Assembly (NCBI RefSeq): GCF_009829945.1
Contig: NZ_SZZT01000001.1
Span: 1 to 64,000 of the forward strand
Source of the DNA: Pantoea sp. SoEX
Lineage (GTDB): Bacteria; Pseudomonadota; Gammaproteobacteria; Enterobacterales; Enterobacteriaceae
DNA length: 64,000 bases
Direction: 5' to 3'
Part shown: piece by piece, positions 7,339 to 51,574 of the stretch
Numbering within the stretch: position 1 is the stretch's first letter
Layout: every line of letters begins with the position of its first letter
The notes under the pieces: model-generated
Database searches by the model: none
What the model saw: only the letters and a program-made list of their open reading frames with translations
What the model was told of the DNA's origin: nothing
Position numbers and translations under genes: made by a program

Positions 7339-10300
7339 ATGGTTTACTCTTATACCGAAAAAAAACGAATTCGCAAGGATTTTGGTAAACGTCCAAAAGT
7401 TTTAGACGTACCTTACCTTCTTTTTATTCAACTTGATTCTTTTCAAAAATTTATTGAACATGATCCGGAGGGTCAATATGGTCTTGAAGCTGCACTCCGT
7501 TCTGTGTTTCCTATTGTAAGTTATGGTGGTAATTCTGAATTACAATATGTAAGTTATCGTTTAAGTGAACCAGTTTTTGATGTAAAAGAATGTCAAATTC
7601 GTGGAGCTACTTATTCTGCACCACTTAGAGTAAAATTAAGATTGGTGATTTATGAACGTGATTTTTCTACAGAAAATACAGTAAAAAATATCAAAGAACA
7701 AGAAGTATACATGGGAGAAATTCCCTTAATGACTGAAAATGGTACTTTTATCATTAATGGTACTGAACGTGTTATAGTTTCTCAGTTACATCGTAGTCCA
7801 GGTGTGTTTTTTGATAGCGATAAAGGTAAAACACATTCTTCTGGTAAAATATTATACAATGCACGCATAATTCCATATAGAGGTTCATGGATAGATTTTG
7901 AATTTGATCCAAAAGATAATCTTTTTATTCGTATTGATCGTAGACGTAAATTACCATCGACTATTATTTTACGTGCACTGGATTATACAACTGAGGATAT
8001 TTTAAATATTTTCTTTGAAAAAATAAAATTTGAAATTAATAATAGTAAAATATTAATGAAATTAGTTCCTGAAAGATTAAGAGGTGAAACTGCCACTTTT
8101 AATGTTAAAGCTAATAACAAGATATACATTGAAAAAAATCGTCGTATTACTTCACGACACATTGCTCAATTAGAAAATGATAACATCCAATATATAGAAG
8201 TGCCAATTGAATATCTTATTGGGAAAATATTAGCAAAAAATTATTATGATAATAACAATGAATTAATTGCTTCAGCTAATAGTAATATTACACTAGAATT
8301 GATATATCAGTTAAAACAATTAGGTTATAAACAAATTGAAACTTTGTTTATTAATGATTTAGATCACGGATCATATATATCTGAAACTTTACGTATTGAT
8401 CCAACCAATGATAGACTAAGCGCATTAGTAGAAATTTATCGTATGATGAGGCCAGGTGAGCCACCAACGCGAGAAGCTACAGAAAATCTTTTCGAAAGTT
8501 TATTCTTTTCCGAAGAAAGGTACGATCTTTCTGCGGTAGGTCGTATGAAATTCAATCGTTCATTGGGAAGAAAAAAAGTAGAAGGATCTAGTATTCTTAG
8601 TAAAGAAGACATAATCGATGTAATGAAAAAACTTATAACTATTCGTAATGGTAAAGGTGAAATAGATGATATTGATCATTTGGGTAATCGCCGTATTAGA
8701 TCAGTAGGAGAAATGGCTGAGAATCAGTTTAGAATCGGTTTAATACGTGTTGAACGTGCTGTTAGGGAACGTCTATCATTAGGTGATCTTGATACTCTGA
8801 TGCCTCAAGATATGATTAACGCTAAGCCAATCTCAGCAGCAGTAAAAGAATTTTTTAGTTCTAGTCAGTTATCTCAATTCATGGATCAAAATAATCCTTT
8901 ATCTGAAATTACTCATAAACGTCGAATTTCGGCTTTAGGTCCTGGAGGTTTAACTCGTGAAAGAGCTGGTTTTGAAGTAAGAGATGTTCATCCTACTCAT
9001 TATGGTCGTGTTTGTCCAATTGAAACTCCTGAAGGTCCCAATATCGGTTTAATTAATTCTTTATCTGTTTATGCTAAAACAAATGAATATGGATTTTTAG
9101 AAACACCATATCGTTGTGTTTTTAATGGTATCGTATCTGATAGAATTAATTATTTATCTGCTATTGAAGAAGGTAATTATATTATTGCTCAAGCAAATGC
9201 TCATTTATATGATGATGGCAAATTTATTGATGATTTAGTGATTTGTCGTCATAAAGGTGAATCCGGGTTGTTCCATAGAGAAAAAGTAGACTATATGGAT
9301 GTTTCTACTCAACAAATAGTTTCTGTTGGTGCATCATTAATACCTTTTCTTGAACATAATGACGCTAATCGTGCTCTAATGGGTGCAAATATGCAGCGAC
9401 AAGCAGTTCCAACCTTACGTGCTGATAAACCTTTAGTTGGGACAGGTATGGAACGTGCTGTGGCTGTTGACTCAGGAGTTACCGTAGTTGCTAAACGTGG
9501 TGGTTTAATACAATACGTTGATGCATCTCGCATTGTTGTAAAAGTTAATGAAACTGAAACATATAATGATGAAGTAGGAATAGATATATATAATTTGACA
9601 AAGTATACTAGATCTAATCAAAATACCTGTATTAATCAAATGCCTTGCATTAGTTTAGGAGAAAAAATTGAAAGAGGTGATGTACTGGCTGATGGTCCTT
9701 CTACTGATCTAGGGGAATTAGCTTTAGGTCAGAATATGAGAGTGGCATTCATGCCTTGGAATGGTTATAATTTTGAAGATTCTATTTTAGTATCAGAACG
9801 TGTAGTTCAAGAAGATAGATTTACTAGTATTCATATTCAAGAATTATCATGTATGTCTAGGGATACAAAATTGGGTGCAGAAGAAGTATCTTCTGATATT
9901 CCAAATGTAAGTGAAGCAGCACTTTCTAAACTTGATGAATCTGGTATTGTTTATGTTGGAGCAGAAGTTACTGGTGGAGATATTTTAGTAGGAAAAGTAA
10001 CCCCAAAAGGTGAAACTCAATTAACACCTGAAGAAAAATTACTACGTGCTATTTTTGGTGAAAAAGCATCTGATGTAAAAGATTCATCATTAAGAGTTCC
10101 AAATGGTGTGTCCGGTACAGTTATAGATGTGCAAATTTTTACTAGAGATGGAATACAAAAAGATAAACGTGCTTTAGAAATCGAAGAAATGCAGTTAAAA
10201 CAAGCAAAAAAAGATTTATCTGAAGAGAAGCAAATTTTAGAATCAAGTATTTTTAGTCGTGCTAAATTATTATTATCTGATCAGATGGAAAAAGAAGATT

Positions 10301-11367
10301 TAAATAAAACTCCCAAAGAATATTGGTTTAATATTCAACTTATTGACCAAGATAAAAAAGAACAGCTAAAACAGCTATCAAATCAATATGAAGAATTAAA
10401 GAAAAAATTTGAGAAAAAAATAGAGGATAAACGTCGTAAAATTACTCAAGGTGATGATCTTGCACCAGGTATATTAAAAATAGTTAAAGTTTATCTTGCA
10501 GTTAAGCGTCATATTCAACCAGGGGATAAAATGGCTGGACGGCATGGTAATAAGGGAGTTATTTCTAAAATAAACCCTATTGAAGATATGCCATATGATG
10601 AACATGGTGTACCAGTTGATATTGTTTTGAATCCCTTAGGAGTTCCATCAAGAATGAATATAGGACAAATTCTTGAAACACATTTAGGTATGGCAGCTAA
10701 AGGTATAGGTCAAAAAATTAATGAAATATTAAAAAATAATGAAAAAATAGTTAAATTAAGAAAATTTATACAAAGTGCTTATGATTTAGGCTCAGACCTT
10801 CGTCAGAAAGTTGATCTAAATAAATTTAGTGATAGTGAAATACTATCTTTAGCAGAAAATTTAAAAAAAGGTATGCCAGTTGCAAGTCCTGTTTTTGATG
10901 GAGCAAAAGAAAAAGAAATCAAAGATTTACTAGAATTAAGTGGTTTACCTTCTTCAGGTCAAATTACTTTATTTGATGGACGTACTAGCGAGAAATTTGA
11001 ACGTAAGGTAACTGTTGGATATATGTATATGCTTAAACTTAATCATTTAGTTGATGATAAAATGCATGCTCGTTCTACAGGTTCATATAGCCTGGTAACT
11101 CAACAACCTTTAGGTGGAAAAGCTCAATTTGGTGGTCAACGTTTTGGAGAAATGGAAGTTTGGGCATTGGAAGCTTATGGGGCAGCATATACTTTACAGG
11201 AAATGTTGACAGTGAAATCTGATGATGTTAATGGTCGTACTAAGATGTATAAGAATATTGTAGATGGCAATCACCATATGGAACCGGGTATGCCTGAATC
11301 CTTTAATGTATTACTAAAGGAAATTAGATCATTAGGGATCAATATAGAATTAGAAGACGAAGAATAG
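7339..11367 (+). CDS. rpoB: DNA-directed RNA polymerase subunit beta
   Basis: Beta subunit of RNA polymerase, 1342 aa, the same length as in E. coli and highly conserved throughout. The rifampicin-binding region [18 protein letters not shown] ... [13 protein letters not shown] is intact and looks wild type (sensitive), with one G-to-S change just before it. Downstream are the active-site motifs [19 protein letters not shown] and [13 protein letters not shown], then the C-terminal [25 protein letters not shown] segment split between domains as usual. The start [16 protein letters not shown] matches E. coli. The upstream attenuator controls read-through from rplL. Confidence 0.99.
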
Positions 11368-42792: not shown

Positions 42793-44040
42793 GTGAAAAA
42801 ATTAAATATTTCAGATTATGATAGTGATATATGGAATGCTATGGAACAAGAAAAGTTACGACAAGAAAATCACATTGAACTGATAGCTTCTGAAAATTAT
42901 ACCAGTCAATATGTTATGCAAGCTCAAGGATCGCAACTTACTAATAAATACGCTGAAGGTTATCCAGGAAAACGTTACTATGGTGGTTGTCAATATATAG
43001 ATATAATAGAAAAATTAGCTATTGAGAGAGCAAAAAAATTATTTGATGCTGACTATGCTAACGTTCAACCGCATTCTGGTTCTCAAGCTAATTTTGCAGT
43101 ATATACGGCATTATTACAACCAAGAGATACAATACTTGGTATGAGTTTGAGCCAAGGAGGTCATTTAACTCATGGAGCACCAGTGAATTTATCTGGAAAA
43201 CTGTATAATGTAGTCCAATATGGAATAGATGAATATGGGGATATTAATTATATAGAACTTAGTAGATTAGCAAGAGAGCATAAACCGAAGATGATTGTTG
43301 GTGGTTTTTCTGCTTATTCAGGTTTATGTAATTGGAAAAAAATGAGACAAATTGCTGACAGCGTTAATGCTTATTTATTTGTAGACATGGCTCATGTTGC
43401 AGGATTAGTAGCAGCTGGAATATATCCTAATCCTATACCATATGCTCATGTTGTAACATCAACAACACATAAGACATTAGCTGGTCCTAGAGGTGGTCTT
43501 ATTGTCGCAAAAAATGGTAACAAAATTATGTATAATAAAATAAACAACGCTGTTTTTCCTTGTAATCAAGGTGGTCCATTGATGCATGTTATAGCTGCTA
43601 AAGCCATTGCATTTAAAGAAGCAATGGAACCTAAATTTAAAGTATATCAACAGAAAGTAGTTAGTAATGCAAAATCTATGGCACAAGTTTTTATAAATAG
43701 AGGTTATAAAATTATTTCCAATGGTACTTTTAATCATATGTTTTTATTAGATTTGACAAATAAAAATTTAACTGGTAAAGAAGCAGATATTGCTCTTAGT
43801 AACGCAAACATAACTGTAAATAAAAATAGCATTCCTAATGATTTGAAAGGACCATTTATTACTTCTGGCATTCGTATTGGTACTCCTGCTGTAACACGTC
43901 GTGGTTTCCAAGAATCAGACGTATCTAACGTAGCTGAATGGATTTCTGATATATTAGATAATATTAATGATAAAACAATTATATATAATATAAAACAAAA
44001 AGTATTAAATCTTTGTAGTTGTTATCCTGTATATCACTAA
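42793..44040 (+). CDS. glyA: Serine hydroxymethyltransferase GlyA
   Basis: PLP enzyme interconverting serine and glycine while making methylene-tetrahydrofolate, feeding glycine to PurD and one-carbon units to PurN and PurH. The 415-aa product (E. coli 417) has the PLP lysine in [14 protein letters not shown] (about 222-235) and the conserved [15 protein letters not shown] near residue 52. It starts at GTG 42793 with GAGGAAAG upstream; homology to E. coli begins at once ([10 protein letters not shown]). Confidence 0.97.
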
Positions 44041-44582
44041 TATTTGCTCTTTAAAATATTAAAAAATAAAAATTAGATTTAATTATCATTATTAAATTAT
44101 TCAAGATAATCAATCAAAATTCATGTATATTTTATTTATTTATGTCATTAATATAAAATCCTAAAGGCACTATATGAATTTATTTTACTTATCATAATGC
44201 GCTTTAATTACGTTAAATTCACATATATATTTAAAATAGTAATTTTTATATATAATAAAGTTATTGTTTTAATTTTTTTATTTGTGATTTATTAAGTTAA
44301 GTAGGATTATAATTTTAAGTTATGGAAAATAATCCTTAGAAAGATATTAATATATTTATGTATAGTTTAAAGTAAAAATTATTAATATTGTTACTTTATA
44401 GTTATAAATTACACTTCAATGATATTATTATATTAATTTAATTTTTATTTATAATATTAATATTTCTTTGTTCTCTTTTCTGGTGAAAAAGTGTTTCTCT
44501 GACTAATCTAAACTATACATATTAAATATTCGTGATACTGAAAAATCTGTATCTTTACTTCCTGTTGCAAGGAGAGTTTATT
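44041..44582. other. Non-coding spacer between glyA and the unnamed membrane protein
   Basis: About 540 bp, very A/T-rich, without a gene-sized frame on either strand. It holds one 8-bp inverted repeat, AGGATTAT / ATAATCCT (44303-44310, 44329-44336). The last 120 bp before the next gene are less A/T-biased (around TTCTCTTTTCTGGTG at 44470) and probably contain its promoter, but no -35/-10 pair is convincing. In E. coli unrelated genes (hmp, glnB and others) lie downstream of glyA. Confidence 0.55.
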
Positions 44583-45617
44583 ATGTTTGATACTAAAATC
44601 AATAATGGTAATGTGGAAAAAGTTGCAGTAAGTGAAAGAACAAGTAATTTACTACATGCTGATTATATTTCTTGGAGTGCAATTTTTGTAGGAGTAATAT
44701 TTACTTTTATACTACATATATTACTTACTTTGTTAGGAACAGCAATTACTACTACGGTAATTGATATACATCAAACCCAGCAGAGTGTGAATAAATTAGG
44801 TAATAATTCATTAATTTGGATAGGTGCTACTTTACTTTTATCTATATCAATCGGTAGTTTTGTTGCTGGTCGTCTAGCAAAATGTTCAGGAGCATTACAT
44901 GGATTATTAGTTTTTTGTTTAAATACATTAATTACAGCATGGTTAGCATTTTCATTAGGCACAAATATTTTTGGTAACATTTTAAATATTGCGCATTCTA
45001 GTCTTAACAAGAACATAGAGGAGAATATTAACGTTACATCTTTACCTACTACGTTATTTCATAGTAATAAAGGAAAGATATTAGATAATAGTAAAATAGA
45101 TAATTTTACAGGAAATGCATATATTGAATTTGCTCAAACTTTTAATACTGATCAAAGATACTTCAATTATGATTTCAATAAAGTAATGAAAAAATTTCAT
45201 AACAAAAAATTATCTTATACAAATAATGATATTAATATATTACATATAAATTTTGTTAGTTGGTTTAAGAAAGTAGAAGATAATCCTACTAAAATATCAC
45301 CAGAAGATGATAAAACTAAAAAAATATCATTGGTAAATAATACTAAAGAACAAAAGAAAATTGTTACTAATAGTTCTACCAGTAATTCTAAAAAAACAGA
45401 TAAGGATATTGATAAAACAACTAAAAAAATAGACAAAAAAAATCAAGATAAAAAAATTACTCAGAATACTTTATCTTCAAACAATTCTTCTGACCAAATT
45501 GAAAATTTGAAAAAATCAACATCAAAAAATACTTGGTATACACTGTGTTTATTGATAACAGAAGCATTGTTGTCTAGTGCTATGGGTATGTTAGGATATA
45601 GAAGTAAGCAAAGTTAA
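44583..45617 (+). CDS. Unnamed four-helix membrane protein with lysine-rich insert
   Basis: No E. coli counterpart that I recognise. The ATG at 44583 has a strong AAGGAGAG site; 344 aa. Three hydrophobic helices occupy about 30-56 (ISWSAIFVGVIFTFILHI...), 76-98 (with GSFVAGRLA) and 103-131 (GALHGLLVFCLNTLITAW); a fourth follows near 317-338. The pattern WSAIF.G...LLTLLG, SFVAGRLA, GALHGL resembles a loosely named bacterial family (often labelled PhnA-like or YrzE-like membrane protein), which usually has a short middle region. Here about 180 residues separate helices 3 and 4, the last 80 of them nearly all K, N, S, T, D and I. A GC-rich terminator follows. I infer an expressed inner-membrane protein; function unknown. 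Its retention in such a reduced genome is notable. Confidence 0.8.
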   Translation: MFDTKINNGNVEKVAVSERTSNLLHADYISWSAIFVGVIFTFILHILLTLLGTAITTTVIDIHQTQQSVNKLGNNSLIWIGATLLLSISIGSFVAGRLAKCSGALHGLLVFCLNTLITAWLAFSLGTNIFGNILNIAHSSLNKNIEENINVTSLPTTLFHSNKGKILDNSKIDNFTGNAYIEFAQTFNTDQRYFNYDFNKVMKKFHNKKLSYTNNDINILHINFVSWFKKVEDNPTKISPEDDKTKKISLVNNTKEQKKIVTNSSTSNSKKTDKDIDKTTKKIDKKNQDKKITQNTLSSNNSSDQIENLKKSTSKNTWYTLCLLITEALLSSAMGMLGYRSKQS

Positions 45618-45649: not shown

Positions 45650-45681
45650 AAGAAAGGCGACATATGCTTGTCGCCTTTCTT
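45650..45681. terminator. Bidirectional terminator between the membrane protein and suhB
   Basis: Perfect 13-bp stem with a GC core, arms 45650-45662 (AAGAAAGGCGACA) and 45669-45681, 6-nt loop, ending in Ts on the plus strand and preceded by As, so it can work in both directions. It lies between two convergent genes (stops at 45617 and 45689). Confidence 0.88.
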
Positions 45682-45688
45682 TATTCAA

Positions 45689-46468
45689 TTATATATTACG
45701 TATTTTTAATAATATTGATTTTAGTACATGGGGATTAGCCGCAATGATATTGTTTGAATTTGTATGATTGCCATTAAAATCAGTAATTAATCCTCCTGAT
45801 TCCCTTACCAATAACTCACCTGCACTAAAATTCCAAGGTTTCAATCCAATATAAAAATAACCATCTACACGTCCCGCTGCTACATATGCCATATCTAATC
45901 CTACTGAACCAGTACGACGAAAATCTATATAATTATGTTTAAATATTTGATTAATCTTAGTAATATATTTTTGGTTATCTTGCTGCAGAGATAATAAATA
46001 ACCTATAGCCAATATAGTTCCCTTTAAATCTACTGCATTACTACATCTCAATCGATAACCATTAAGCTGTGCTCCTTGTCCGCGCACAGCGCTAAATATT
46101 TCATTAAGTATAGGAGCATAAATTACAGCTATTTCAGTGCGATTTTTCATAGTTAAAGTTATTGAAATTGAAAAATTAGGCAAACATTTTAAAAAATTAC
46201 TAATACAATCTAAAGGATCTATAGTCCATTTTATATCTTTATTTGAACCAATAATTTTACCATGCATTTCAGTAATAATATTGTGTTCAGGATATGATTT
46301 ACGGATCACATCAATAATTAATTTTTCTAATTCAATTTTAACAGAATTAGTGATGTTTTTGATATTGGGTTGATTGATTTTAACGGTACTTACGATTTCA
46401 TAATTTTTAACAATTAAATTTCCTGCTCTTCTCACTGCACGTATAGCAATATTCAGCATTGGATGCAT
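45689..46468 (-). CDS. suhB: SuhB, inositol-monophosphatase-family protein (catalytic residues degenerate)
   Basis: E. coli SuhB has inositol monophosphatase activity and a separate role as a Nus factor in rRNA antitermination. The 259-aa product (E. coli 267) aligns without gaps through the first 150 residues or so, and its start MHPMLNIAIRAVRRAGNLI is nearly identical. Metal ligands Glu67, Asp84 and Asp87 remain, but Asp44 is lysine, Glu68 is methionine, the DGTTNF segment reads DCISNF (Gly88 to Cys, Thr89 to Ile), Glu205 is tyrosine and Asp212 is asparagine (KPWNFSAGE). These changes should abolish or greatly weaken phosphatase activity. DFRRTGS and VAAGRVDGYF are conserved, and the frame is intact. 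I infer selection for the Nus role. The last eight residues of the E. coli protein are missing. Confidence 0.93.
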   Translation of the reverse strand: MHPMLNIAIRAVRRAGNLIVKNYEIVSTVKINQPNIKNITNSVKIELEKLIIDVIRKSYPEHNIITEMHGKIIGSNKDIKWTIDPLDCISNFLKCLPNFSISITLTMKNRTEIAVIYAPILNEIFSAVRGQGAQLNGYRLRCSNAVDLKGTILAIGYLLSLQQDNQKYITKINQIFKHNYIDFRRTGSVGLDMAYVAAGRVDGYFYIGLKPWNFSAGELLVRESGGLITDFNGNHTNSNNIIAANPHVLKSILLKIRNI

Positions 46469-47096
46469 TATTATTTCTCGTTAAATATCCGTATTAGAAA
46501 GGTAAAATTTAGAAATGTAAATTTAATATTTTATAGATTACTTGAATTTTGATTATTATACAATATGTTGTTTTAATAATTATATTTGATATTATTTTAT
46601 TACTTAATAACATCAATTATATCATAAATTAATTTTAAATATTTAAAATACTTTATACAATAATTTTTTAAAATATCATAAATTAATAATTGTCAATGAT
46701 CAAAATAATGTAAAAATTATTTTATTTAAGAAAATATCGTGAAATAGAATATTAAATTTATACATGTATATAAAATCAATTATGTATAACATTTTATTGA
46801 AAATAAAATGATTATTAATTTGAAACATATATAATCAAAATTGATTTTCATAGTATTTTAAAAAGGTAATAAAATATTAAATATATTTATTTAAATATAA
46901 TTCAAAAATATTTTTATATTATTTTAAAAAATATAAAATTTACATATTTGTTGATTCTAATATAGCATAAAACAAATAATAATGTTTAAATTTATTGCTT
47001 GTTTTATGCTATTAAGATTATTTTATATAATTACATTTATATTATTAATTAGTAATAAATATATTTTTTATATAAAATTAATGGAGTAATTATAAA
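46469..47096. other. Non-coding spacer at the position of lost trmJ-iscR, with a long hairpin
   Basis: About 630 bp of low-complexity A/T sequence between divergent suhB and iscS, where E. coli has trmJ and iscR. No gene is visible. It contains a perfect 14-bp inverted repeat, 46962-46975 (ATAGCATAAAACAA) with 46999-47012, whose stem can continue inward for five more pairs past a mismatch and a wobble. The hairpin ends 84 bp before the iscS ATG and could lie in the iscS leader. Confidence 0.6.
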
Positions 47097-48245
47097 ATGA
47101 AATTACCAATTTATTTAGATTACGCTTCGACAACTCCAGTTGATGAACGTGTTGCTAATAAAATGATGCAATATTTAACTAAAGATGGAATTTTTGGTAA
47201 TTCTGCTTCTAGATCTCACTGTTTCGGCTGGAAAGCAGAAGAAGCAATAAATATTGCTCGTAGTCAAATAGCAAAAGTAGTGAATTCTGATCCTAGAGAA
47301 ATAATTTTTACTTCTGGAGCTACTGAATCTAATAACTTAGCTATTAAGGGAACTGCTCAATTTTTTGAAACAAAAGGTCAACATATAATTACAAGTGTAA
47401 TTGAACATAAATCAGTATTAGATACTTGTAATTATCTAGAAAATAAAGGTTTTCAAATAACATACCTTCCATGCTCAAAAAAAGGCTTTATATCAGTAGA
47501 TGAACTAAAATCCTCTTTAAAAGAAGAAACTATTTTAGTTTCAATTATACATGTTAATAATGAAATTGGAACAATCCAAGATATTGTCAATATAGGAGAA
47601 ATATGTCATAAATATAATATCATGTTTCATGTAGATGCATCACAAAGTATTTGCAAATTACCAATTAATCTAAATAAATTAAAAGTAGATTTGATGTCCT
47701 TTTCAGCTCACAAGATATATGGTCCTAAAGGTATAGGCGCATTATATGTACGCAAAAAACCTTATCATCAAATTGCAACTCAAATTCATGGTGGAGGACA
47801 TGAACGCGGAATACGTTCTGGAACTTTACCTGTACACCAAATTGTTGGTATGGGAGAAGCTTATCGTATTGCAAATAAATACATTAAAAAAGAATCAATA
47901 TATTTAAGAAATTTACGTAATAAGTTTTGGCAAGAAATTTGTACATTAGATAATGTATCAATTAATGGAGATTTACAAAATAGTATCGGAAATATTATTA
48001 ATATAAGATTTAATAACATAGATAGTGAATCTTTAATTTTAGCTTTGAAAGATCTGGCAATTTCTTCTGGTTCTGCCTGTACTTCCGCATATCTTGAAGC
48101 TTCTTATATATTACGTGCTTTAGGATTAAGTGAAGAAATGGCACATAATTCTATTCGTTTTTCTATAGGCAGATTTACTACTATAGAAGAAATTGATTAT
48201 GCTATATCTTTAATAAAAAAATCAGTATCTTATTTATCGAGATAA
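47097..48245 (+). CDS. iscS: Cysteine desulfurase IscS (lacks IscU-binding tail)
   Basis: PLP enzyme that moves sulfur from cysteine to acceptors for Fe-S clusters, tRNA thiolation and other thio-cofactors. The 382-aa product (E. coli 404) starts [19 protein letters not shown], has the PLP lysine in [13 protein letters not shown] and the catalytic cysteine in [20 protein letters not shown], so it is of IscS type and probably active. It ends KKSVSYLSR; the E. coli C-terminal extension of some 22 residues, which contacts IscU, is missing. iscR, iscU, iscA, hscBA and fdx are all absent from their usual places. A role in tRNA thiolation, or feeding another Fe-S system, is more likely than the classical ISC route. 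Confidence 0.95.
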
Positions 48246-48525
48246 TTCTAATTTTAAATTAGAATGAAAAATGAATCTTTGATTGTTACATTAATAGTGA
48301 CATAATTTGATAATTACTTTTTTTTATGATTTTCATTATTAAAAAAAAGATATAACTGTAATGTTTTAAAAAATTATACTGTTCATATTAATCAATCATA
48401 TTACTTTACTAAATTATTTTATTATAAGATAATCATATAAAATATAGAATTATATTTCTAAAATAAAAAATTAATTTTACAAAATATCTTAATAACATTA
48501 TTTAATAAAAATTTAAGAGAATAAT

Positions 48526-48957
48526 ATGACACTTGAGCGCACTCTTTCAATAATTAAACCTAATATAGTAGCTAAAAATTTGATAGGTAAAATTATCAAT
48601 AAATTTGAAATTACAGGTTTTAAAATTATTGGCATAAAAATGATTCGGTTAAATAAACAACAAGTTGAAAATTTTTATAAACTACATATCAATAGGTATT
48701 TTTTTAAAGATCTAGTTAATTTCATGATTTCAGGACCTATTATTGTTGCTATATTAGAAAGTGAAAATGCTATTAAATTACATCGAGAATTAATAGGAGA
48801 TACTAATCCACTTAAAGCATTAAAGGGTACACTACGTGCTGAATATGCTGATAGCTATACTGAAAATGGTTTTCATGGTTCTGATTCCGAAAAATCAGCT
48901 ATGTTTGAAATTAATTATTTTTTTAGAAAAGATGAGATATTTTCTGGTGTAAATTGA
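48526..48957 (+). CDS. ndk: Nucleoside diphosphate kinase Ndk
   Basis: Balances NTP and dNTP pools by phosphate transfer through a phosphohistidine. It is 143 aa, as in E. coli, starting MTLERTLSIIKPNIVAKN, with the active-site histidine in NGFHGSDSEKSA. The residue before the histidine is Phe where E. coli has Thr. AAGAGA precedes the ATG. In E. coli several isc and other genes lie between iscS and ndk; here 280 non-coding bases remain, beginning with an 8-bp inverted repeat that abuts the iscS stop (48245-48265). Confidence 0.96.
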   Translation: MTLERTLSIIKPNIVAKNLIGKIINKFEITGFKIIGIKMIRLNKQQVENFYKLHINRYFFKDLVNFMISGPIIVAILESENAIKLHRELIGDTNPLKALKGTLRAEYADSYTENGFHGSDSEKSAMFEINYFFRKDEIFSGVN

Positions 48958-49025
48958 TTTTAAAATAACTAAATATAAAACAATTATTTATATTGTTTTA
49001 TGTAAAGAATGATTAAGGTAAACCT

Positions 49026-50141
49026 ATGTTTAGAGAAATATCAGAATCTCCTTCTTCTATATTTTTTAATAAATTATTTTTTGAAAAACAAAAAATTAAT
49101 ATGCTTGAATTAAATAGAGAAAAAATGAAAGAATTTTTTGTTTCGCTAGGAGAAAAACCATTTCATGCAGATCAAGTAATGAAATGGATTTATCATCATT
49201 ACTGTGATGATTTTCATAATATGACTAATCTTAACAAAGAATTACGTTCTAAATTAGAAAAATTTGCTAAAATCAGTATACCTAGTGTAGTTAAAGAGGT
49301 TAGATCTTCTGATGGAAGTATTAAATGGTCTCTTGAAGTTGAAAATCAGTTTATAGAGACTGTTTATATTCCTTATAAAAAACGTGCTACACTATGTATT
49401 TCATCACAAATCGGTTGTGCTTTGGGATGTAAATTTTGCTATACTGCTACACAGGGATTTATCCGTAATTTAAGTACAGCTGAAATTATTGGACAAATTT
49501 GGTGTATATCTAATATTATAAAAAATAATAAATCAATAAGTAATATGCATCCTATTACTAATATAGTGTTTATGGGAATGGGAGAACCATTATTAAATTT
49601 AAATAATGTTGCAAGATCAATAAATATAATGTTAGATGATTTTGGTTTTGGTTTTTCTAAACGTCGCATAACATTATCAACTTCTGGCATAGTGCCAGCA
49701 TTGAGCAAATTAAGTGAACTTGTTGACGTGTCTCTTGCAATATCATTGCATGCTCCAAACGATAATTTACGAAACGAAATAATGCCGATCAATAAAAAAT
49801 ATAATATTAATAATGTTTTGTTAGAAATTAGAGAGTATCTAGCACAATCTAAAACTAAAAAAGGAATTGTTACCATTGAGTATGTTTTACTTAGTCATGT
49901 GAATGATCATATTAATCATGCATATGAATTAGTAAAATTACTTAAAAATTTACCGTGTAAAATAAATCTTATCCCCTGGAACTATTTTCCAGGATCATCT
50001 TATTTCCGTAGTTCTAATAATCGTATCATGCGTTTCTCAAAAATTTTAACAGAGCAGGGATTTAATACTATTATTCGTAAAAATAGAGGTAGTGATATTA
50101 GTGCAGCTTGTGGTCAATTGACTGGTATAGTTAAAAACTAA
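49026..50141 (+). CDS. rlmN: Dual-specificity RNA methyltransferase RlmN
   Basis: Radical-SAM enzyme that methylates C2 of A2503 in 23S rRNA and A37 of some tRNAs. The 371-aa product (E. coli 384) has the cluster motif [15 protein letters not shown] (Cx3Cx2C), the SAM-binding [23 protein letters not shown], and the mechanistic cysteine in AACGQL near the C-terminus. The tail of about 17 residues after it is missing (ends GIVKN). The other mechanistic cysteine region is intact. rodZ, which precedes ispG in E. coli, is absent. Confidence 0.95.
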
Positions 50142-50455
50142 AAAATTATCATTAATATTTTGGATATTATAAGACAACCAATTATAATCTTAATTATTAA
50201 GGCAAATGAAATATCCCATTACAATTATTACACACCGTTATATTTTAAATATTGCATTTAATCTGCATTCAGTACAAATTTTGTATTGCATAATTAACTT
50301 TTTTTACTAAACAATTATAAAGTTATTAAATAATTATGCAGTACTGTTAAAAATAACTAATCACATATAATATAATATGTAGTAGTTTCTTTTTAACAAT
50401 TATATAATAGAAGAATATTCTATTTACTTTGTTCTGGTAATTCTTGGAGAAATAT
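50142..50455. other. Non-coding spacer at the position of lost rodZ
   Basis: About 310 bp between rlmN and ispG. No open frame of note, and no rodZ motif that I can recognise. TGCATTTAATCTGCATT near 50249-50265 and a TACAAATTTTGTA palindrome near 50272 are the only local structures. The ispG ribosome-binding site closes the region. Confidence 0.55.
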
Positions 50456-51574
50456 GTGTATAGCAAAAAACATATTATTCGGCGTCAATCAAAACTTATT
50501 CATGTAGGTAAAGTACCGATTGGAAATGGAACTCCTATAACTGTTCAATCAATGACCAATACATGTACTACAGATATTAATGCAACAATTAAACAAATTG
50601 AATCTCTTAAAAATGCAGGTGCTGACATCATTAGGATTTCAGTACCACATATGGATGCTGTCAAAGCATTTAAACTAATAAAACAAAAAACAGATATACC
50701 ATTAATAGCTGATATTCATTTTGACTATCGTATTGCATTAAAAGTTGCTGAATATGGAGCCGATTGCTTACGCATTAATCCAGGAAATATTGGTAATGAA
50801 AGAAAAATTCGCATGGTAGTAGATTGTGCAAAATATAATAATATTCCTATTCGCATTGGTGTAAATTCGGGATCTTTAGAAAAAGATATTATAAATAAAT
50901 ATGGTAGAGTCATACCAGAAGCTTTAGTAGAATCTGCTATGCGTCATGCAGATTATTTAGATCGTTTTAATTTTGATCAATTTAAAGTAAGTGTTAAAGC
51001 TTCTAATGTTTCCATTGCAGTAAAATCTTACCGTTTGCTTGCTAAGCAAATAGATCAACCATTGCATATTGGTATTACTGAATCTGGAACTATACGTAAT
51101 GGTACAGTTAAGTCTTCTATTGGTATTGGACTGTTACTGTCAGAAGGAATTGGTGATACAATAAGAGTATCATTAGCAGCAAATCCTATAGAAGAAATTA
51201 AAGTGGGTTTTGATATACTTCACTCTTTAAATATACGTTCACGTGGTGTTAATTTTATTGCTTGTCCTACTTGTTCTCGACAGGAATTTGATGTTATAAG
51301 CACCGTTAATGAACTAGAAAAACGCCTTCATGATATATCAATACCAATCAATGTTTCAATTATTGGTTGTATCGTAAATGGTCCGGGAGAAGCTGCTACA
51401 TCAACAATAGGTTTAACTGGAGGTAAAAATAAGAGCAGTGTTTATGAAGATGGTTTACGTAATAAAAATAAGATTGATAATAAAAATATAATAGATCAAT
51501 TAGAAATGCGTATTCGTAATAAAGTATTGAATATTGATCAAAAAATATATTCTAATGAATTATTGAAAAAATAA
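50456..51574 (+). CDS. ispG: 4-hydroxy-3-methylbut-2-enyl diphosphate synthase IspG (GcpE)
   Basis: Penultimate step of the MEP isoprenoid pathway; a 4Fe-4S enzyme. I place the start at GTG 50456, 6 bp after GGAG, which gives 372 aa, the E. coli length; a TTG at 50444 is in frame but overlaps that ribosome-binding site. The cluster cysteines are in [14 protein letters not shown] and [15 protein letters not shown]-barrel segments such as [11 protein letters not shown] and [11 protein letters not shown] are intact. It needs Fe-S assembly, so some Fe-S system must operate despite the loss of iscU here. Confidence 0.95.

Follow-up and report, generated by a model that had tools for sequence, protein, structure and literature searches.

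What keeps a suhB gene open when much of the phosphatase active site that it encodes has been replaced? The question is raised by a locus in the window (the whole stretch of 64,000 nucleotides that we analysed), which belongs to a genome of 826,838 bases in 12 contigs. Five further species of the genus have genomes of 0.8-0.9 Mb, and the organism, a small-genome bacterium, is probably an insect symbiont. E. coli SuhB binds NusA-AR2 and rrn signal RNA, is required for stable NusB/E entry and delays Rho termination (PMC6614801); its association with RNA polymerase at rRNA is NusB-dependent, and the protein is tied to rRNA maturation (PMC4807359). Both papers describe phosphatase-defective E. coli suhB mutants without growth defect (PMC4807359; PMC6614801), and one of them notes no obvious metabolic need for SuhB activity in this species (PMC4807359). 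We regard the SuhB of the window as very probably a pseudophosphatase kept as a Nus factor, a state that evolved repeatedly; both the lack of catalysis and the Nus role as the selected function are inferred, without any assay. The initial annotation had proposed selection for this non-enzymatic Nus-factor role, and our results support it within the same limits, since absence of phosphatase activity and Nus function remain inferences.

The suhB gene and its active site

The product of the window gene exceeds the cut-offs of the NCBIfam family for SuhB-type inositol-1-monophosphatases (NF008027, 351.1 bits for a cut-off of 332) and of PF00459 (178.7 for a cut-off of 27), and in the PDB it is matched best by chains of E. 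coli SuhB (6tqn, 6ib7, and 2qfl; E about 1e-91 to 1e-92). Alignment to E. coli SuhB upholds the initial description of an intact frame of 259 codons (Table 1) in which six active-site residues have been replaced (D44K, E68M, G88C, T89I, E205Y, and D212N) and E67, D84, D87, and the RRTGS stretch retained. Further changes are T90S and A188V, and N91, R183, R184, G186, S187, and W211 are unchanged. In our first large-genome set of 102 SuhBs, each of nine catalytic columns is identical in 101-102 sequences. For scoring we used six core residues (D44, E67, D84, D87, T89, and D212), the metal ligands and water-activating residues of the family; this core set is incomplete in the window SuhB (D44K, T89I, and D212N). 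Sequencing error can be excluded, as the remaining five species of the genus likewise have replacements at most of these nine catalytic columns. The window's genome contains no second intact SuhB either, its sole other match being CysQ.

Table 1 Features of the window, with positions counted from its first nucleotide
Feature	Positions	Strand	Remarks
suhB, degraded phosphatase active site	45689..46468	-	ATG start, 259 codons, no internal stop
Codon 44 of suhB, Lys (Asp44 in E. coli, the family's water-activating Asp)	46337..46339	-	Counted from ORF start
Codons 83-90 of suhB, IDPLDCIS (ancestral metal/phosphate motif IDPLDGTT; G88C, T89I, T90S)	46199..46222	-	Counted from ORF start
Codons 210-215 of suhB, KPWNFS (ancestral motif RPWDFA; D212N, metal ligand)	45824..45841	-	Counted from ORF start
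Terminator-like inverted repeat with a following TTTATT, between suhB and orf361	45652..45679	.	By eye, no tool score
iscS-like gene, suhB neighbour	47097..48245	+	Omega control (0.059)
glyA	42793..44040	+	Omega control (0.049)
rpoB match	7360..11352	+	Source for the species tree

On one side suhB is flanked by a 361-aa ORF without Pfam match (orf361) and on the other by the iscS-like gene. The 361-aa ORF (window positions 44532-45617) has hydrophobic ends and occurs in all six genus members, at 33-49% identity to that of the window, and, by eye, also in the 1.2-Mb genome G124. Searches for urease retrieved none in any of the six genus members (0 of 15 genomes searched), an absence that argues against Blochmannia. 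An AlphaFold2 model of the window SuhB, computed from its alignment with 27 SuhBs out of the best 80 of at least 589 contig-scan matches, has a mean pLDDT of 78.4 and a pTM of 0.80, with lower values around residues 31-40, 141-190, and 201-210. Its top PDB match is 6ib8_A (E 1.4e-28), from the SuhB-NusA-AR2 complex; the SuhB entries 6ib7 and 2qfl and an rrn complex (6tqn) are also among the best matches. Because it was built on an alignment of homologues, this model is not independent of homology, and the predicted structure indicates compatibility with the SuhB fold and nothing beyond that.

Distribution of the active-site changes

The initial annotation had treated the loss as a peculiarity of one genome, a claim that we abandon, as the loss is genus-wide and recurs in other lineages. 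Across the six species of the genus, D44 is replaced by K in five and by E in one, and T89 by I in five and by M in one; G88 (C or S) and E68 (M, I, or K) are replaced in all six, D212 and E205 in five, D84 in four, and E67 in two, and D87 is unchanged throughout. A SuhB match at E of 1e-22 or lower was found in 189 of the 197 related genomes searched, the eight without a match measuring 0.2-1.2 Mb. Changes at one or more of the six core residues occur in all 41 small-genome SuhBs (6 from the genus, 35 from other genera) and in one of 120 SuhBs of larger-genome close relatives, a set that includes the best 80 of at least 589 matches. The single exception in that set, with its best 80 of at least 589 matches, is a D212N change in Colwellia psychrerythraea ND2E (L109 2501-3274), where the other five core residues are intact. 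The mildest small-genome case (G065) has D44A alone among the six. The 41 small-genome SuhBs comprise all 40 matches in sampled family genomes of up to 1.6 Mb (6 from the genus, 34 from other genera) plus that of G068 (2.4 Mb); the 120 comprise 80 named loci (the best 80 of at least 589 contig-scan matches, none of them titled as the window's genus) plus 40 genomes, 35 of them from the window's family, and may include some species more than once. G013 (2.0 Mb, intact site) was placed with the large genomes and G068, whose site is lost, with the small ones; L121 was dropped as a duplicate of the G010 locus, and G098 was left out of both groups. With a plain size cut between 1.6 and 2.0 Mb, all 40 small genomes and 3 of 122 larger ones (G068, G098, and the Colwellia locus) show changes, 39 SuhBs of other families being excluded and the larger set again including the best 80 of at least 589 matches. 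G033 (49% complete, suhB in pieces) and some other searched genomes stand outside the counts, and for G117, whose match was flagged with one TAA, we used the open 259-aa segment.

In an rpoB tree of 60 genomes, the site-loss label requires at least 5-6 changes, and well-supported branches alone force 4-5. The tree was a quick one without bootstrap and with long-branch warnings, and long-branch attraction among small genomes would reduce the number of changes. The loss of the catalytic site arose more than once, the losses in other families being additional to the count on the rpoB tree.

Other families of the order (genomes of 1.7-5.1 Mb) contributed 39 SuhBs, of which 31 have all six core residues and eight show changes: E67K, D87N, and D212E in G036 and G165; D44A or T, D84N, and D212E in G171 and G044; D44A in G055; and only T89S in G056, G038, and G057. 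The SuhBs of G036, G165, G171, and G044 (L347, L348, L345, and L342) carry several catalytic changes in genomes of 4.6-5.1 Mb. The site is intact in G151, which has the genus code of G171 and G044, and in G161, which has that of G055; it is also intact in the two other examined members of the family of G171. The G038 protein is in addition altered at three of the eleven columns that are invariant across small genomes (see below). The idea that the loss is limited to tiny genomes is excluded by the eight changed cases, and divergence alone by the SuhBs of G053, G042, G037, G048, and G145, which keep all six core residues at 46-54% identity to the E. coli protein. The genome-reduction setting evoked by the initial annotation therefore holds for the 41 small-genome SuhBs and fails as the sole setting, since some large-genome lineages have also lost the site.

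The active site might instead have been remodelled for another substrate or chemistry. The replacements common within the genus (K44 and I89 in five of six, C or S at position 88 in all six) look as if they had been fixed once, as a neofunctionalised enzyme or one of changed specificity would have it. Across lineages, however, the replacements are heterogeneous and strike metal ligands and water-activating residues alike; at E67, for instance, small-genome lineages have K, N, Q, I, A, D, R, V, or Y. Such heterogeneity suggests loss, not redesign, and we give little credence to a new enzymatic function.

Selection on suhB and focus of the loss

The suhB gene is under purifying selection. A codon model fitted to the six species of the genus yields an omega of 0.113, and not the value near 1 that the initial annotation had named as refuting its proposal; its lnL is -3331.3, about 200 units above the best value (-3531.9) obtained when omega was fixed at 1 in five fits (kappa 1, 2, 3, 4, or 6). 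The omega estimates are rough because synonymous change is large. The frame is intact in all six members, whose proteins are 59-79% identical to that of the window, whereas neutral change simulated at a nominal 0.25 per site introduces a mean of 6.7 stops into it and leaves none in 0.1% of runs. These values oppose a general decay in which suhB would be heading to pseudogene status and the active-site changes would merely be part of that course, a reading for which some support nevertheless exists: the omega of suhB is roughly double the values for four neighbouring genes (0.113 versus 0.049-0.071; glyA and iscS, Table 1; ndk, 0.060; rlmN, 0.071), the further control orf361 having 0.184, and loss of suhB does occur, as attested by a remnant with stops in G124. 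The 3.3-Mb genome G098, in which the frame has been kept and catalytic residues have been lost together with R183, G186, K251, and L254, may represent early decay. Against such decay, the catalytic columns of the small-genome proteins are lost more than other invariant ones in 41 of 41 cases (invariants defined on a set including the best 80 of at least 589 matches), and we hold general decay to be very unlikely. The G098 protein itself (L295, G098:C1:3064622-3065389) is changed at four of the six core residues; calling it decaying throughout would be too strong, as its other invariant columns are changed at 0.23 versus 0.26 in the window, and it stands apart by the loss of the four residues just named.

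The focus of the loss was quantified on 102 columns that are at least 98% identical among the 120 larger-genome SuhBs (including the best 80 of at least 589 matches), nine of them catalytic and 93 others. With columns so defined, the mean change in the 41 small-genome SuhBs is 0.67 for the catalytic and 0.285 for the other invariant columns, and the catalytic fraction is the higher in all 41 (Wilcoxon 1.2e-8, a p-value that is merely indicative because the rows are related). Less diverged cases include G084 (33% of catalytic versus 6% of other columns), G109 (67% versus 8%), and G068 (67% versus 13%), and the weakest focus is that of G065 (11% versus 8%). Many positions that adjoin catalytic residues in sequence (D38 to N42, G70, G74, and W211) are also heavily changed in small genomes; they presumably line the same pocket of the fold. 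Eleven columns, the start Met aside, are unchanged in all 41 (L5, W81, N91, P97, Y117, F125, N136, R141, G186, Y194, and E222), six of them being identical in all 200 fetched SuhBs and E. coli when G098 is excluded (a fetched set that includes the best 80 of at least 589 matches).

Two controls exclude AT-biased mutation alone. The seven acidic catalytic columns are changed at 0.70 versus 0.26 for eleven acidic non-catalytic invariants (p 0.0016), and the CysQ motifs DPxDGT, SEE, and WD are intact in all 18 small-genome copies examined, 16 of which come from genomes with a site-lost SuhB, five of those 16 in the window's genus. Outside this tally are the CysQ-like matches in G068, a weak match in G035, and two partial matches in G018. 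Four of the 18 copies were checked by profile, all four scoring above the TIGR01331 CysQ cut-off and three of them below the stricter NF008182. Going by these alignments, the SuhB loss is not to be equated with AT drift or with genome-wide enzyme decay.

Nus partners and boxA

The genome of the window encodes a NusA of 500 aa that matches E. coli NusA over its full length, AR2 included, and a NusB above cut-off (G000:C10:41757-42134). The initial annotation had asked for the NusA-contact residues to be checked, and K251 and L254 are kept in all six genus members; in E. coli, their double mutation nearly abolished NusA-AR2 binding (PMC6614801). Among the 41 small-genome SuhBs, K251 is kept in 30 and L254 in 33 (changed in 11 and 8, respectively); outside the genus, R184 is changed in 28 of 35 and kept in 7.

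NusA with AR2 occurs in 26 of the 28 SuhB-bearing small genomes examined, and NusB over cut-off in all 26 tested. The two exceptions, G121 and G081 (L314 and L315), have short NusA frames (363 and 419 aa) in which no AR2 is detectable, and have kept SuhB. Where AR1 and AR2 are both present, AR2 is the closer of the two to its counterpart in the window's NusA, by identity, in 23 of 25 SuhB-bearing small genomes; of two large genomes, one goes each way. Of the four SuhB-less genomes whose NusA was examined, two (G124 and G129) have AR2 as well. The NusB frame is intact in two of the eight SuhB-less genomes, G088 and G131 (the latter just below cut-off), and the NusB of G129 passes the cut-off but is broken up by stops. 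The co-retention of SuhB and NusB (Fisher 2e-5) is confounded with genome size, seven of the eight SuhB-less genomes measuring 0.2-0.4 Mb. The eighth, G124, groups with the window's genus in the rpoB tree and contains the remains of suhB, interrupted by a stop and a frame change and placed between iscS-like and orf361-like ORFs as in the window (neighbours identified by eye), together with a nusB remnant with three stops and an intact CysQ (L190 and L323, G124:C1:47500-50000 and 47000-51500; L322). In the 0.3-Mb genome G131, the NusA match (L319, G131:C1:225975-226979) contains three in-frame TGA codons, and TGA may be recoded there.

A boxA-like motif, GYTCTTTWA, is present in 15 of 16 small-genome 16S leaders and in 12 of the 13 of those with SuhB, for 0.05 expected from shuffles, the pattern having been set after inspection; its distance from the end of the fetched 16S leader is 110-180 bases. 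The tally of 16 omits G018 and G078 because of their short leaders, as well as G002 and G016, which were inspected without being counted. rRNA genes are absent from the window's assembly. In the genus member G002, the 16S leader gave no boxA-like match, and a boxA-like TTGTTCTTTAAAAATTT is found in the 16S-23S spacer, after the spacer tRNAs.

The retained protein could also serve another non-catalytic role, for example in ribosome assembly or through effects on mRNA, and not the boxA-dependent rrn complex. The two genomes that keep SuhB with a NusA lacking AR2 would fit such a role, as would the intact NusB frames of the two SuhB-less genomes. It is opposed by the co-retention of NusB in 26 of 26 genomes, by the breakage of both suhB and nusB in G124, and by the published finding that, in E. 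coli, SuhB depends on NusB to associate with RNA polymerase at rRNA (PMC4807359). We see only a slim chance that such a role explains the retention.

Proposed course of the loss and implications

We therefore return to SuhB as a Nus factor. At the boxA of E. coli rRNA, SuhB assembles with NusA, NusB, NusE, and NusG on RNA polymerase and promotes rRNA synthesis and 30S maturation, and the growth phenotype does not need its catalysis. In the course that we propose, selection for phosphatase activity would have lapsed in the lineage of the window and, on repeated occasions, in other lineages with small genomes. Because of this lapse the metal ligands would have drifted, along with the Asp/Thr pair that activates water and the residues next to them. 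Purifying selection would have continued on the rest of the protein, given that rRNA transcription complexes still need it. From the Nus role in E. coli and the conserved NusA-contact residues, we infer that the window gene acts as a Nus factor only; the criterion for a pseudoenzyme, a selected enzyme fold without catalytic residues, is satisfied by its product at the level of sequence only.

Some published observations touch on this inference. A metabolic model of Buchnera left suhB out as unconnected to biomass (PMC2649895), an omission that fits the Nus-factor-only reading. In two other sources, suhB figures in a tabulation of genes that differ between Buchnera clades (PMC11188193) and as ancestrally essential in a list for Enterobacteriaceae, where it is marked for near-misses (PMC11481867). 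Titles and the starts of abstracts in the endosymbiont and pseudoenzyme literature offered no description of SuhB active-site loss, most subscription journals being outside the coverage.

Catalysis is dispensable for the growth role of SuhB in E. coli, yet the active site is kept by nearly all larger-genome close relatives examined (including the best 80 of at least 589 matches). We lean, only slightly, towards a broader reading in which SuhB repeatedly became a pure transcription factor in host-restricted and some large-genome lineages, while in most larger-genome relatives its phosphatase has a selected purpose that laboratory studies of E. coli have missed, as the near invariance of the site elsewhere would require; lineages without the site would mark the conditions under which this purpose vanishes. 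Many small-genome lineages provide a natural experiment, with the enzyme lost and the protein retained, and the purpose of the SuhB phosphatase becomes a comparative question. They also offer ready-made separation-of-function SuhBs for studies of the rRNA transcription complex and call for caution in metabolic annotation: an inositol monophosphatase of the symbiont Blochmannia floridanus, which may or may not be a SuhB of this kind, was assigned to an inositol pathway (PMC1360075).

Comparison with known systems

The SuhB of E. coli (6ib7, 6ib8, 2qfl, and 6tqn), an inositol-1-monophosphatase and Nus factor, resembles that of the window in its near-equal length, its NF008027 score, K251, L254, R183, R184, and the RGQGAQLNG stretch, as well as in the fold predicted by AlphaFold (TM 0.81-0.85 by query length), and differs in having the D44, E68, G88, T89, E205, and D212 that are replaced in the window. 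Other small-genome SuhBs share the open frame, the loss of catalytic residues, the retention of NusB and, usually, that of NusA-AR2, whereas the identity of the lost residues varies and some genomes lack SuhB altogether. The paralogue CysQ, a 3'(2'),5'-bisphosphate nucleotidase, belongs to the same fold family with the motif DPLDGT ... WD; unlike SuhB, it has retained this motif in all 18 small-genome copies examined, and ongoing selection for its metabolic use is inferred. A looser parallel is provided by the pseudophosphatases STYX and MK-STYX, which likewise retained a phosphatase fold for binding after catalysis was lost, in their case the unrelated protein tyrosine phosphatase fold and in the setting of eukaryotic signalling.
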